Both the position numbers and the translations under genes were made by a program. Positions 40,451-45,171 of a stretch of DNA of 64,000 bases are shown one piece after another. Each line of letters starts with the position of its first letter. The first letter of the stretch is position 1. This DNA comes from Terriglobus roseus (GTDB lineage: Bacteria; Acidobacteriota; Terriglobia; Terriglobales; Acidobacteriaceae): the NCBI RefSeq assembly GCF_900102185.1, contig NZ_LT629690.1, forward strand, positions 2,170,001 through 2,234,000, given 5' to 3'. The notes under the pieces are model-generated. The model did no database searches. It worked only from the letters and a program-made list of their open reading frames with translations, and was not told the DNA's origin.

Positions 40451-40495
40451 AAAAAGCCTCGCTCGCGATGGATTCATCGCGAGCGAGGCTTTTTT
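40451..40495. terminator. Strong bidirectional terminator
   Basis: A 20-bp stem (40451-40470 with 40475-40494) and GATT loop is flanked by A-run and T-run on either side. It separates the M16 peptidase gene from the converging PepSY gene. Confidence 0.93.
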
Positions 40496-40501
40496 GTTCT
40501 T

Positions 40502-41197
40502 CTACGGTACCCAGATGCGATAGAGCAGCAGGCACAGGGCTGTTGCAATTGCGGCCAACAGCAGACCGCTGGTGCGACGCTTGTAGATGAAGAAGATCAG
40601 CACCAGTCCAGAAAGCGATACCAGCGTGAGTAGGATGGCTGAACCGTCTATCACCCATGACCACACCTTGCCGCTGTCGCGCCCCTTGTGAAGGTCATTA
40701 ATGACGGCAACGAATCCTGCTTTCGTCTCCACCACCTGATACTTTCCTGTGGCGCGATCTACCGTTGTGTCCGCGCTATAGCCCGGGCCGCGGAAGCTGA
40801 AGGTGATCTGGTCGTCGTCCACGCGCAGGTCTTCGGTATTTACCGCACCGTGGACATGGTCCGTGTTGCGGATGTGCTCCACGATGGCCAGTGTGTCCGG
40901 ATGGTCCTTCGGTCCCATCTCTTTCGCGGACAGCGAACCGTTAAGATTCTTAACCACCTCTCCATGCGAGAAGTAGTCCGCGTGGTTCAGTGTGAGTCCG
41001 GTCACAGCGAAGAACAGCACCACGGCGAAGCTCACCATGGACAAATAGATATGCAGCCAGCGCGAGACAATCGCGGTCTGCTTACGCAGACGCACCCGGA
41101 GAGGCTGTTTCGCCTTTCCGGGTGTGCTGTGATGGCTTTCGGGTTTGGTGGAAGGACTAGTGTTTACGGTAGTCAAGCTGCACCGCTCCGAGTTCAT
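40502..41197 (-). CDS. PepSY-associated transmembrane protein
   Basis: 231 residues. After a polar N-terminus comes SRWLHIYLSMVSFAVVLFFAVTGLTLNH (first helix, with the histidine-containing start typical of PepSY-TM proteins), then a periplasmic PepSY-like region (about 85-170) with NDLHKGRDSGKVWSWVIDGSA leading into helix 2. A last helix pair ends at the C-terminus. Such proteins take part in membrane redox or iron reduction. It overlaps the 3' end of the ApbE gene by 41 nt, so co-translation is likely. The ATG at 41197 has no strong ribosome site; a TTG a few codons in is possible. Confidence 0.78.
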   Translation of the reverse strand: MNSERCSLTTVNTSPSTKPESHHSTPGKAKQPLRVRLRKQTAIVSRWLHIYLSMVSFAVVLFFAVTGLTLNHADYFSHGEVVKNLNGSLSAKEMGPKDHPDTLAIVEHIRNTDHVHGAVNTEDLRVDDDQITFSFRGPGYSADTTVDRATGKYQVVETKAGFVAVINDLHKGRDSGKVWSWVIDGSAILLTLVSLSGLVLIFFIYKRRTSGLLLAAIATALCLLLYRIWVP

Positions 41198-42725
41198 CGC
41201 TTGCCGGCAACGTCTTCGCAGAAGGCGTGCCGTTGAAGTTGATCTCCTGGCGAAGCAGCGAGTGACCACCGTGTTCACGCGCGGCTTCAATCACCACTGT
41301 GTACGTGCCTGCCTTTAGCAGCTTGCCGTTGTTGTCTTTACCGTCCCACTTCAGCGTGTATGAACCCGGGACACGCGTAGCACTGGAAACCGTTGCAGAG
41401 ATGTCCGTGCCTTCGCTCAGATTGCGCAGCTGGTCATCGCGGTACCAGCCCTTCAACTCATTCAGCCAACGAGGATTCTTGAACCACAGCGCAATGGTGC
41501 GAACGGGATACTTGTCCTTGTCTTCAATCCACACCGCAACATAAGGACGACGATAACGCGGGTTATCCATACGCGGCAGTTCCAGCTTGATCTGCAGTTC
41601 CATGGACTGGTTCCAGTTCGTGCCGGCCTGCGGTGCTGCAGCGCCCGCCTTCACGATGTATGCAGCGCGTTCGAGTTTGGGCTCTGCGTAGTTCGTCCAG
41701 CCGTTGCTGCGAATTTCTTCGCCAGACGCAGTCACGATGAGATATTGCGCATCGGGATGACGCTGCATCAATGCCTGCGATTCACGCGGCGATAGGATGG
41801 ACAACGCTGTAGCCAATGCGCCCGCAGTAGTTGCATCCTGAGCGATAACGCTGGAGGACAGCACCTGCGCTGCAGGCGTAGCCGTGCGCGGGTCGATGAT
41901 GTGGGACATGCGCTCGCCTGCAACATCGAAGCCACGACGATAGCTGCCACTGGTGGCGATGGCACGGTCGCGCAGCACAACTGTGTCGATGGCTGCATCG
42001 TTCTCGGTGTGCGCCTGAGGATTGGCAACGTCAACACGCTGGGTCAAGGCGCCGCGAGTTACGATGTCGCCACCCACGTTCAACATCACGCCTGATGCAC
42101 CTGCGTGCAGAGCGGCTTCTGCAGCCTTCTCCGTGATCCAGCTTTTCGTGAACGTAGCAAGGACCAGCGGAGCATCGCTGAGACGCGTTGCTGTGCCGTT
42201 GGTACGATCCAACGACCAGTGGGGCTGCTTCATCGTCTGCACAGCAGCAGCAAGCTGTTCCGTGGAAGGCGCTGCACCTTTTGCAGCGGCACCACGCCAT
42301 ACCTTTGCAGCAGTCTCGCTGGAAGCGTTCAGAACTCCGCCCGTTTCACCCTGCCAAGCATCGAAGTGAGCGAGCACTTCCATCAACTCCGGCGATACCT
42401 TCACTGCAACGCCGCGTGTCTTCTGCCAACGCGAAAATTCGCTGTCCGCATTCCATGCGCTGAGTTTCGAGGAAAGACGATCGAACTCTGCAAGCGCGGC
42501 CTTCTCGGCTACACGTGCATCGCGCTGCGACGGTGCACTGATGGCCGCATCCAGTGATGTCCCCAACACGTTTTCATGCGAGAAACCCCATGTACCCGCG
42601 GCATCCTTCGCCGGAGCAACAGAGGGTTCTGCAGCATGTGCCGCAACAAAGCCCGGCAGAACACCAAACGCAATCGCAGCCAGTGACACTGCACCATTCT
42701 TCATCTTCGAAACTGTCTTATTCAC
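41157..42725 (-). CDS. ApbE-type FMN transferase fused to DUF2271
   Basis: 522 residues. Export signal (about 8-32, ending AAHAAEP). The ApbE domain (about 45-335) has FDRLSSKLSAWNADSEF, LNVGGDIVTRG, ATSGSYRRGF and SHIIDPRTATP. A C-terminal DUF2271 domain (about 365-510) contains YRRPYVAVWIEDKD and WDGKDNNGKLLKAGTYTV. ApbE enzymes attach FMN to Thr/Ser of exported redox proteins, using Mg2+ and FAD. No protein in this window shows a clear flavinylation motif, so the acceptor is elsewhere or unrecognised. The start is a GTG with GGGAGAG 8 nt upstream; an ATG at 42704 is the alternative. Confidence 0.88.
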   Translation of the reverse strand: MNKTVSKMKNGAVSLAAIAFGVLPGFVAAHAAEPSVAPAKDAAGTWGFSHENVLGTSLDAAISAPSQRDARVAEKAALAEFDRLSSKLSAWNADSEFSRWQKTRGVAVKVSPELMEVLAHFDAWQGETGGVLNASSETAAKVWRGAAAKGAAPSTEQLAAAVQTMKQPHWSLDRTNGTATRLSDAPLVLATFTKSWITEKAAEAALHAGASGVMLNVGGDIVTRGALTQRVDVANPQAHTENDAAIDTVVLRDRAIATSGSYRRGFDVAGERMSHIIDPRTATPAAQVLSSSVIAQDATTAGALATALSILSPRESQALMQRHPDAQYLIVTASGEEIRSNGWTNYAEPKLERAAYIVKAGAAAPQAGTNWNQSMELQIKLELPRMDNPRYRRPYVAVWIEDKDKYPVRTIALWFKNPRWLNELKGWYRDDQLRNLSEGTDISATVSSATRVPGSYTLKWDGKDNNGKLLKAGTYTVVIEAAREHGGHSLLRQEINFNGTPSAKTLPASDELGAVQLDYRKH

Positions 42726-42808: not shown

Positions 42809-43669
42809 TTACTGCTGAGGCTGCTGACCGCCCTGGCCACGACCACCACCAGGACCTCCCGGACCACCAGGACCGCCCGGTCCACGTCCCTGCGGCTGCT
42901 TCTCCATGTAAGCGGTGGCCTCGTCCATATCGACCTTGCCGTCGTGGTTCGTATCGATCGCCTCAAACTGCGCCTGCATACGATCGGGCATCTCTTCCTT
43001 GGTCAGAGCGCCGTCCTTGTTGGTGTCCCACTCGTCAAAGAGGTGTTCCGCGCGCTGGCGGGGGGTCTGCTGACGCATGCGAAGCTCTGCCACGGACAAC
43101 GTGCCATCGCCATCCTTGTCCAGCGTCTTCAGCGCTGCAGGCGCATTCGTGATTTCTGTAGCTGAAAGGATGCCGTCCTTGTCTACATCCAGAACGATCA
43201 TGACGGGGTCCATGCTGCTGAAGTTGCCACGACCAATAGGACGCCCCTGGGGATCGGCCTGCTTGCCGGACATGGCAGCGATTTCCGCCTTCGTCAGCTT
43301 GCCATCATGATTCGCGTCGCCCTTTTCAAAGAGCGGCTTCATGCGCTCAGGCACTTCGTCTGCCGTCAGAACACCGTCGCCATTCTTGTCCAGCAGCATC
43401 AGGCGCTGCTCAAGATCGCTGCTTGCGGTCTTGTCTTCCAGGCGCGGATTGTATTCCGCTGAGGTGATCTGCCCATCGCCGTTCTTGTCCAACTTCAGCA
43501 ACGCCTGCGATGCAGCGGCAATCTCCGCTGCCGAAAGCTGGCCATCACCATCCGTATCCAACGCTTCCAGAACGATGCGCTTGGGCGGTCCGCCACCGCC
43601 GGGGCCCTGTGCAACAGCGGCCGAGGAAAGAAGAATGGGCAGGGCAAACAGCAAGTGCGATGGCTTCAT
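42809..43669 (-). CDS. Secreted protein with eight EF-hand loops
   Basis: 286 residues with a signal peptide (1-20, ending AVAQ). Eight canonical EF-hand loops are visible: [84 protein letters not shown] and [12 protein letters not shown]. It should bind calcium in the periplasm or outside the cell. The last 30 residues are Gly/Pro/Gln-rich. First gene of a run with ApbE-DUF2271 and PepSY-TM, behind a promoter that carries two matching inverted repeats. A role in metal handling for the redox proteins is inference. Confidence 0.9.
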
Positions 43670-43687
43670 CGGGAACGATCCTGAGGA

Positions 43688-43714
43688 GAATGAGGACTGA
43701 AAATGTCCTCATTC
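43688..43714. promoter_or_regulatory. Operator-like inverted repeat 1: GAATGAGGAC-N7-GTCCTCATTC
   Basis: A perfect 10-bp inverted repeat with a 7-nt spacer. Its core AGGAC-N7-GTCCT is identical to that of the second repeat 28 bp away, centre to centre. It covers the expected transcription start of the EF-hand gene. Confidence 0.7.
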
Positions 43715-43715
43715 A

Positions 43716-43744
43716 GTTGTAGGACATATTTGGTCCTAGATCAA
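43716..43744 (-). promoter_or_regulatory. Promoter of the EF-hand run with inverted repeat 2 inside its spacer
   Basis: Read leftward: -35 TTGATC (43744-43739), 17-nt spacer, -10 TACAAC (43721-43716). The spacer is filled by TAGGAC-N7-GTCCTA (43720-43738), sharing the AGGAC-N7-GTCCT core with repeat 1. A dimeric repressor bound here would block RNA polymerase directly. The regulator is not identifiable. Confidence 0.7.
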
Positions 43745-43806: not shown

Positions 43807-44472
43807 CTATGCCGGAGGCAGACCGTCCACCACCGTCACACCAGCAGGAGGAGTGAAACGGAAGTCTGCATCGGAGGCGGCGACGTTCTCTTTCATGTCC
43901 CGGAATGCGAACTCCGTTACGGTGCCGTCGATCTCTTCGATACGTAGTCCGGTGATGACTCCCGTAGCGGCGATCACGGTGACGGAGATGCGTTGCACGC
44001 GCTGATCGCCAGGCGACATCGCATAGTGCGGCGTTCCGCTTAGAGTGACTTCCCCACTGCCCGCTGGGGTTACCTTCAGGTTGTCCAGTTCTTTTTCCAG
44101 CTTCGTATGGCCCAGCAGGAAGCGCAGCGGAGAGCGCATGTCGTCCAGTTGTTTTGCAGGGACGCGTTGCGCCTGCGGATCGCCCGGCGTGTAGCTAATG
44201 GCGTATTTGCCGTCGAGCACGAAGAGCTTGCCGTTGCTGTACTGCCAGCGCATACGTCCCGGCTTCTTCAGCAGCAGCGTGCCACCTTCAGTGCGTTGCT
44301 GTCCCATGCCACTGTAATGCTCGGTGTACGTGGCGTGCAGCGTGGTCAGGTGGTTGTAGTGGTCGTCGACCTTCGAAGCGATTGCGTGAACATCCTGCGC
44401 GTGAGCGGACACTGACAACACAGCGACCGCCGCAAATCCTGTAAGAAACTTCATCGTTTTGCTAAGACGCAC
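43807..44472 (-). CDS. lolA: Outer-membrane lipoprotein carrier protein LolA
   Basis: 221 residues: signal peptide (core FLTGFAAVAVLSVSAHA) and the LolA fold with LHATYTEHYSGM, GTLLLKKPGRMRWQYSNGKLFVLDG (typical of LolA strands binding the lipid), PLRFLLGHTKLEKELD and a C-terminal EFAFRDMKENVAASDADFRFTPPAGV. It ferries lipoproteins across the periplasm to LolB or the outer membrane. I choose the GTG start at 44472 because AGGGAGA lies just upstream; the ATG at 44454 has no ribosome site. Confidence 0.9.
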   Translation of the reverse strand: MRLSKTMKFLTGFAAVAVLSVSAHAQDVHAIASKVDDHYNHLTTLHATYTEHYSGMGQQRTEGGTLLLKKPGRMRWQYSNGKLFVLDGKYAISYTPGDPQAQRVPAKQLDDMRSPLRFLLGHTKLEKELDNLKVTPAGSGEVTLSGTPHYAMSPGDQRVQRISVTVIAATGVITGLRIEEIDGTVTEFAFRDMKENVAASDADFRFTPPAGVTVVDGLPPA

Positions 44473-44503
44473 AAACTCTCCCTGGAGTCATCCGTACAGA
44501 CGA

Positions 44504-44527
44504 AAGGCGCAGCCGAAGCTGCGCCTT
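44504..44527 (-). terminator. Hairpin terminator of the pilin gene, UUCG loop
   Basis: A 10-bp stem (44504-44513 with 44518-44527) closes on TTCG when read leftward, followed by TTTCGTCTG. The stem core resembles that at 18208-18231, with the same CAGC-CGAA-GCTG centre. Confidence 0.78.
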
Positions 44528-44544
44528 CCCAACATCAAACCCGT

Positions 44545-45057
44545 TTACTGAATGGGCTGTGTGCAGGCGGTGCCCCCCTTGGGGTCGTACTTCACCTGCT
44601 GCGAATCATCAGAGCAGAAGCCACGGTCGCCGGTGTTGCCCACCTTCTGCGGAACTGCGGTGATCTCGTACGAGGTGTACTGATCCTGATTGTTAATCGT
44701 TACTTTATTGCAGTTCACGAGGGCGAAGGTGTAACCCGCCTTCTGGCCGCCCGCGAGATCCGACGGCAACAGGCCGGCCGCTGCGGGAGTTGGAGCTGCT
44801 CCCTTGTCACCACCCAGAGCTGCCAGCGAGCAGGCATAACCGTTAGCCGGATACGTCTGCTGATACTGCAACTGTGCCGCTACGATGGCGCGGATGGACT
44901 GGATCGCCGAGGTCTCGTTGCCCTGCCGCTTGATGCGCGTGATGTTCGGGATCGCGAAGGTGGCAATGATGATGATGATCGACATCACGATCAGCAATTC
45001 GATGAGCGTAAAGCCCTCATCCTGGCGCGATGCACGGCGGCGGTTCGGTAAAGTCAT
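44545..45057 (-). CDS. Type IV pilin-like protein
   Basis: 170 residues. A basic leader of 15 residues ends at the prepilin peptidase site (QDEG then FTLIELLIVM), with Glu5 of the mature protein, followed by a long Ile-rich helix (MSIIIIIATFAIPNITRI). The globular part (about 60-170) has four cysteines, which could form two disulfides. The length and the KVTINNQDQYTSYEITAVPQ region fit a major pilin or minor pilin rather than GspG. The ATG at 45057 has GAGGA upstream. No other pilus genes adjoin, so it is an orphan pilin in this window. Confidence 0.83.
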   Translation of the reverse strand: MTLPNRRRASRQDEGFTLIELLIVMSIIIIIATFAIPNITRIKRQGNETSAIQSIRAIVAAQLQYQQTYPANGYACSLAALGGDKGAAPTPAAAGLLPSDLAGGQKAGYTFALVNCNKVTINNQDQYTSYEITAVPQKVGNTGDRGFCSDDSQQVKYDPKGGTACTQPIQ

Positions 45058-45171
45058 GCGGATCCTCAACGGAGTTCGAAACGGCTTATAGCCCTGCCGA
45101 GAGAGACGGAGGGAAAAGCGAATCGACAACACAAACTGTAGCAAAAAGAAGCCAGACTTGTTCGCCTATGG

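Follow-up and report, generated by a model that had tools for sequence, protein, structure and literature searches.

Which protein occupies the two matching palindromes in the promoter of an EF-hand gene of the soil acidobacterium Terriglobus roseus, and which signal does it read? The promoter lies in the window, the whole stretch of 64,000 nucleotides that was analysed, and window positions are counted from its first letter. A first-pass annotation had described the locus as two matching operators in a promoter of the tightly repressed type, with regulator and signal unknown. We discuss here the promoter, its conservation in related genomes, the other genes that carry the site, and the candidate regulators.

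Architecture of the promoter

The promoter was located on the minus strand between a LolA-like gene (43807-44472) and the EF-hand gene (42809-43669). It showed the order TTGATC-TAGGACCAAATATGTCC-TACAAC, then TGAATGAGGACATTTTCAGTCCTCATT, and then the ATG at 43669. The −35 element TTGATC (43744-43739) and the −10 element TACAAC (43721-43716), both assigned from the sequence and from orthologous promoters, were separated by a 17-nt spacer (43738-43722) on the same strand. Operator 1 (43721-43737), an exact AGGAC-N7-GTCCT palindrome, filled this spacer and had one base in common with the −10 element. Operator 2 (43688-43714) contained the same core at 43693-43709 inside perfect 10-bp arms, GAATGAGGAC-TGAAAAT-GTCCTCATTC. 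The centre-to-centre distance was 28 bp and both palindromes were exact, which confirmed the pair that had been annotated. The start of transcription is expected at about 43707-43709, and would therefore be covered by operator 2. The generic promoter scan of the window did not list the EF-hand promoter; it demands a final T in the −10 element, which TACAAC does not have.

LolA-like and type IV pilin-like (N_methyl) genes (43807-45144) adjoined the EF-hand operon. The same neighbourhood recurred in relatives, for example at L021, L141, L146, and L150.

Genes of the operon

The first gene of the operon coded for an EF-hand repeat protein (42809..43669, minus strand), detected by PF13202 and other EF-hand models. 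It was followed on the minus strand by an ApbE-DUF2271 fusion (41157..42725), an FMN transferase joined to a flavinylation-substrate domain (PF02424, E 8e-52; PF10029, E 3.4e-41), and by a PepSY_TM-like membrane protein (40502..41290; PF16357, E 4.2e-50), whose true start is probably downstream of the listed TTG. Just 3' of the operon, the hairpin scan detected a 20-pair hairpin with a T run (40451..40494), a likely terminator. It was listed on the plus strand, and its reverse complement likewise ended in T.

ApbE, DUF2271, and a PepSY-like protein were thus present together, as in PepSY-like flavinylation systems. The [S/T]GA[S/T] flavinylation motif was not found in the DUF2271 domain of the window, and by eye SSAT occupied the presumed place. 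In the 25 DUF2271 rows printed, SSAT was observed 22 times and SAAT once, and two rows matched elsewhere. SSAT may be a variant flavinylation target or a lost one.

Rarity of the pair

With one mismatch allowed, the window contained 2 sites against 1.5 expected. The genome (4.85 Mb) contained 4 exact sites and 70 sites with one mismatch, and 10 when an A+T spacer was demanded; the reversed-pattern control gave 8, 193, and 5, respectively. As the control gave more exact sites (8 vs 4), single sites were not enriched genome-wide. Among the matches listed of the 70, no evident link was seen for the sites at L012, L015, L016, L018, L019, and L020. Apart from the four sites of the two pairs, six GGAC-NN-WWW-NN-GTCC sites of the genome were inside predicted frames or on their margins, and were left uncounted.

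Two of the four exact sites of the genome formed the EF-hand promoter pair, 28 bp apart. The tandem pattern occurred as 2 pairs in the genome, against 0 for the control. Across the family (398 genomes), 15 genomes together gave 19 exact pairs, against 7 in 7 for the control; among the 19, the G273 and G249 pairs and both from G242 were chance- or repeat-like by eye. Pairing, and not the single site, is the unusual feature that stands out.

Conservation in orthologous operons

Orthologues of the ApbE-DUF2271 protein (E <= 1e-80) were present in 40 of the 398 genomes searched. From these, 39 operon genomes were entered (G394, at a contig edge, was left out), and in three (G233, G266, and G362) the stretch examined lacked an EF-hand frame, which left 36 readable operons. 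A site was counted when its GAC/GTC core was intact, with at most 2 mismatches and at least 4 A/T among the 7 spacer bases. At least one site was found in 31 of the 36 operons and two in 18, and the scan gave no site in the remaining 5/36. Control windows of the same length at the same loci showed a site in 1 of 474, and mononucleotide-shuffled upstreams in 0.8%. The repeats are thus kept upstream of orthologous genes, a check that had been proposed for them, and this conservation ruled out a chance origin of the pair.

The geometry was compared in 17 of the 18 two-site promoters, the window's own included; G315, with its sites 52 bp apart, was left out. In each of them the two hexamers were taken at set distances from operator 1. 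All 17 closely paired promoters (sites 25-28 bp apart) showed TTGA(TA/TC/AC/AT) at the −35 place and, after 17 nt, TA(T/C)AA(A/C/G) at the −10 place. In every one of them operator 1 was in the spacer and operator 2 started 3-6 nt beyond the −10 element, so that the annotated placement, with one operator between TTGATC and TACAAC and the other over the expected start, recurred throughout. The operator-to-operator step varied (25, 27, or 28 bp) and the −35/−10 spacing was constant. One-site promoters, such as those of G066 and G117, kept the site directly after a −10-like element. This conserved geometry argues for the tightly repressed type of promoter that had been suggested.

The second pair and other target genes

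A genome search for AGGAC-N7-GTCCT pairs, also proposed in the first-pass annotation, gave one further tandem pair, at about C1:2945834-2945875. It was located between an SRPBCC-like gene and a divergent operon coding for a TonB receptor, then a Sel1 protein, and then a YbiX/PiuC-type Fe2+-dependent dioxygenase. The best named model for the receptor was the catecholate siderophore receptor Fiu, with 362 bits, below its cut-off of 686, and the dioxygenase scored 362 bits, above the cut-off of 180. The SRPBCC-like gene, named by eye (169 aa; L236 4450-4959, G000:C1 about 2945949), shared the pair with the Fiu-like receptor and showed no Pfam or NCBIfam match.

A model of the pair, R1, was trained on 15 pairs, whose recovery is built in; hits independent of the training were both pairs of G128, the second loci of G194, G277, G095 and G066, G117, and all weak ones. 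In 20 genomes, own included, matches were obtained in 19 (E <= 1). Reading covered 17 model-match loci, with L152-L154 outside this set. A TonB receptor gene was beside the site in 7 (6 checked by Pfam, L151 by eye), the EF-hand operon in 4, a multicopper oxidase in 1, and a PepSY_TM-like gene in 1 (L156, by eye), and no clear target was seen at 4 (L148, L149, L155, and L157). Among 15 weak matches read, 9 were without evident iron link and 6 fitted: an FTR1 iron permease (L158), an A-type Fe-S carrier (L160), an IscR-like Rrf2 gene with an iscS-like gene (L167), the SRPBCC-like promoter (L172), and, by eye, PepSY_TM-like genes at L159 and L170. The A-type carrier genes of the own genome had no convincing site. 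Many of the predicted target genes are iron or Fe-S genes.

In G344 (L138 / L042), a pair was observed between a TonB receptor gene and a divergent gene that by eye was pyridine-nucleotide-disulfide oxidoreductase-like.

Candidate regulators

The own genome contained three Rrf2 genes over the cut-off (L027, L028, and L029). L027 (G000:C1:4027289-4027699, minus strand) was IscR-like and upstream of an iscS-like gene. Its best named Rrf2 subfamily was TIGR02944, ‘SUF system Fe-S cluster assembly regulator’, with 86.3 bits, below the cut-off of 110.65, so it passed only the Rrf2 superfamily model. Three cysteines in its C-terminal part, C-x6-C-x5-C, were likewise seen in the IscR-like sequences printed in full, and by this pattern L027 is a predicted Fe-S-binding Rrf2 protein. 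For L029 the NsrR model was best, yet under the cut-off. An Rrf2 match was found in 29 of 30 genomes searched; the exception, G283, had the pair and was 70% complete.

For the iscR-like promoters, 32 loci were entered and 24 matched the start pattern. The pattern missed L177, L178, and L200, all IscR-like, and L177 has a site; L201 was unclassified. A site was present in 8 of the 24 promoters against 0 of 216 control windows, at −54 to −62 in seven and at −27 in one. At L176, L183, L185, and L191 the site followed TACACT, and at L192, L193, L198, and L199 a weaker form was seen by eye at the same place. The scan showed no site in the other 16/24, including the own genome, G031, and G166. Autoregulation is a common trait of such regulators. 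It was looked for in the own species and not seen, because neither the own iscR-like promoter nor the A-type carrier genes had a site.

Another Rrf2 protein of the genome could bind the pair, either L029, which is NsrR-like and would sense NO, or L028, or the signal could be redox or NO and not iron. With three Rrf2 genes over the cut-off there is more than one candidate. IscR type 1 sites have the form GAC-N7-GTC. RisR uses GAC-N7-GTC as well (PMC9973013), so the spacing singles out no Rrf2 member. The genomic distribution points to the IscR-like protein: G180, G231, G207, and G240 had EF-hand promoter sites and a single Rrf2 match each, which was IscR-like. None of the four L028/L029-type genes that were read (L187, L188, L028, and L029) had a site upstream, against 8/24 for iscR-like genes, and the many iron and Fe-S targets speak against a redox or NO signal. 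We therefore consider this alternative unlikely.

That the operators are Fur sites is the least probable of the alternatives, and we regard it as very unlikely. The Fur box is of the GATAAT type, and GGAC-N7-GTCC does not resemble this box. Palindromes of another kind, TTGAGAATTATTCTCAA, TTGATAATAATTATC, and variants, which we take to be Fur/PerR-box-like, were found instead before several iscR-like genes of the genus. In favor of Fur, one Fur-family gene was present in the genome, and PepSY/DUF2271 clusters, which are thought to reduce iron (PMC8238504), are under repression by Fur in both Shewanella and Caulobacter (PMC8238504, PMC12004947). Fur as the direct regulator was set aside on the form of the site.

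The Fur/PerR-box-like palindromes were seen at L027 (G000:C1 about 4027.8 kb), L193, L199, L184, and L186, as if Fur stood above the Rrf2 regulator.

The tandem pattern across GTDB

The GTDB scan for the A+T-spaced pair gave 52 loci. Five had the pair before Rrf2 genes (L066, L102, L076, L081, and L105). By eye, suf genes were beside L066, L076, and L081; the parts of L102 and L105 in view showed none. The Rrf2 proteins of L066, L102, and L081, the three tested, all passed TIGR02944. Two of the 52 loci (L064 and L104) were acidobacterial EF-hand promoters.

A loose frame test placed an Arc-like frame beside the pair at 29 of the 52 GTDB loci, so doubled GGAC-N7-GTCC sites can also serve a protein of another kind. 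On these grounds a non-Rrf2 repressor with a similar site, whether of the ribbon-helix-helix (Arc-like) class or of another, might bind here, which we judge quite improbable. The Arc-like loci mostly had the symmetric GGACAT/ATGTCC, and the acidobacterial and Rrf2-suf sites were mostly without it, although this difference was modest. At the three acidobacterial loci among the 52 (L064, L104, and L106) this frame test gave no Arc-like frame, and the Arc-like repressor was set aside.

The 29 Arc-like loci (of L056-L107) were mostly from Rhodobacterales, with tandem operators mostly of the form GGACA-N5-TGTCC, 24-25 bp apart. The operator was at the start of the repressor frame and often, by eye, near an integrase-like frame. 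Such a locus resembles a mobile-element switch under autoregulation.

Proposed mechanism

From these comparisons, the regulator and signal left unknown by the first-pass annotation can be narrowed to a putative Fe-S-sensing Rrf2 protein and to iron or Fe-S status. The pair is probably a tandem operator for such a repressor, most likely L027, and sufficiency of iron or Fe-S would repress the EF-hand operon. Iron status probably controls the operon because relatives keep the sites and the sites resemble those of an Fe-S-sensing repressor. The strongest argument for iron as the signal is one of position, as both tandem operators of the genome are found at probable equivalents of two Caulobacter loci. 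We infer from sequence which protein acts, that it binds and represses, what it senses, and what the enzymes of the operon do.

Under good iron or Fe-S supply, the [Fe-S]-loaded Rrf2 dimer would bind both palindromes. One of them occupies the −35/−10 spacer (operator 1) and the other the expected start (operator 2), so that RNA polymerase would be shut out twice. Under iron shortage, or when the cluster is damaged, the apo-protein would be released and the EF-hand/ApbE-DUF2271/PepSY operon expressed. The products would form a membrane-to-periplasm flavin electron path, which probably reduces ferric iron ahead of its uptake. Control of the second pair, at the Fiu-like receptor/Sel1/PiuC-like operon, would fall to this regulator as well.

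A broader proposal, which we hold only tentatively, is that in Acidobacteriaceae an Fe-S-sensing, RisR-like Rrf2 repressor took over direct control of surface iron acquisition from Fur, and that the lineage of the window shed isc autoregulation, leaving a dedicated iron-uptake regulator. Its targets would be the flavin/PepSY reductase, Fiu-PiuC, FTR1, and other TonB receptors, and its tandem operators would clamp the −35/−10 region and the start site. A literature search on Rrf2 and iron in Acidobacteria (open-licence papers, by title) gave no such regulator in the phylum. On the mechanism proposed above, an uncharacterised, widespread flavin-based surface redox system would be linked through its regulation to iron or Fe-S sensing, probably apart from Fur, and a concrete candidate regulator and 17-bp site for iron control in Acidobacteriota can be named.

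Comparison with known systems

The proposed regulator is of a known kind; the target set and the tandem layout are new. A close likeness was with RisR of Myxococcus xanthus, whose footprinted site is T(T/G)GAC-N7-GTCC(T/A) with A+T flanks and overlaps −35 and −10, or −10 and the start (PMC9973013). Holo-RisR represses, and in the authors' model iron limitation or chelation and superoxide or oxidative stress relieve repression; RisR belongs to the Rrf2 subgroup IS6, which includes Acidobacteria (PMC9973013). Both window sites had the GAC-N7-GTC core of RisR, the outer G/C, and A+T-rich surroundings, with A as the outermost base where RisR has T (PMC9973013). Overlap with the putative core promoter, judged from the −35/−10-like hexamers, was likewise seen in 17/17 paired promoters. 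The RisR targets considered here are isc and suf, with one protected region of ~30 bp per promoter (PMC9973013), whereas here tandem sites are on flavinylation and iron-uptake operons and the own iscR-like gene is without a site.

IscR of Rhodobacter sphaeroides is also an Rrf2 protein that represses iron genes, through a 19-bp palindrome, the Iron-Rhodo-box, mostly over −35/−10 (PMC4618611). It differs in being alphaproteobacterial and in its single-cysteine cluster ligation (PMC4618611).

The operon shares ApbE, DUF2271 (fusions are noted), and a PepSY-like membrane protein with the PepSY-like flavinylation systems for which iron reduction was proposed (PMC8238504). It differs in being led by an EF-hand protein, a term absent from the text of PMC8238504, and in SSAT at the presumed flavin site in place of [S/T]GA[S/T].

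In Caulobacter, CCNA_03155-03159 (PepSY-DUF2271) and cciT/cciO (TonB receptor and 2OG/Fe(II) dioxygenase) are the likely counterparts of the two target loci (PMC12004947; PMC11475020). The two rank among the loci whose fitness loss under EDTA was greatest, and Fur has each of them as a target (PMC12004947). For CCNA_00028 (cciT) a putative IscR site is given in addition, and the Caulobacter IscR motifs printed there are not GGAC-N7-GTCC (PMC11475020). The comparison suggests that PepSY/DUF2271 and cciT/cciO, which Fur controls in Caulobacter, have been kept together here under a different regulator.
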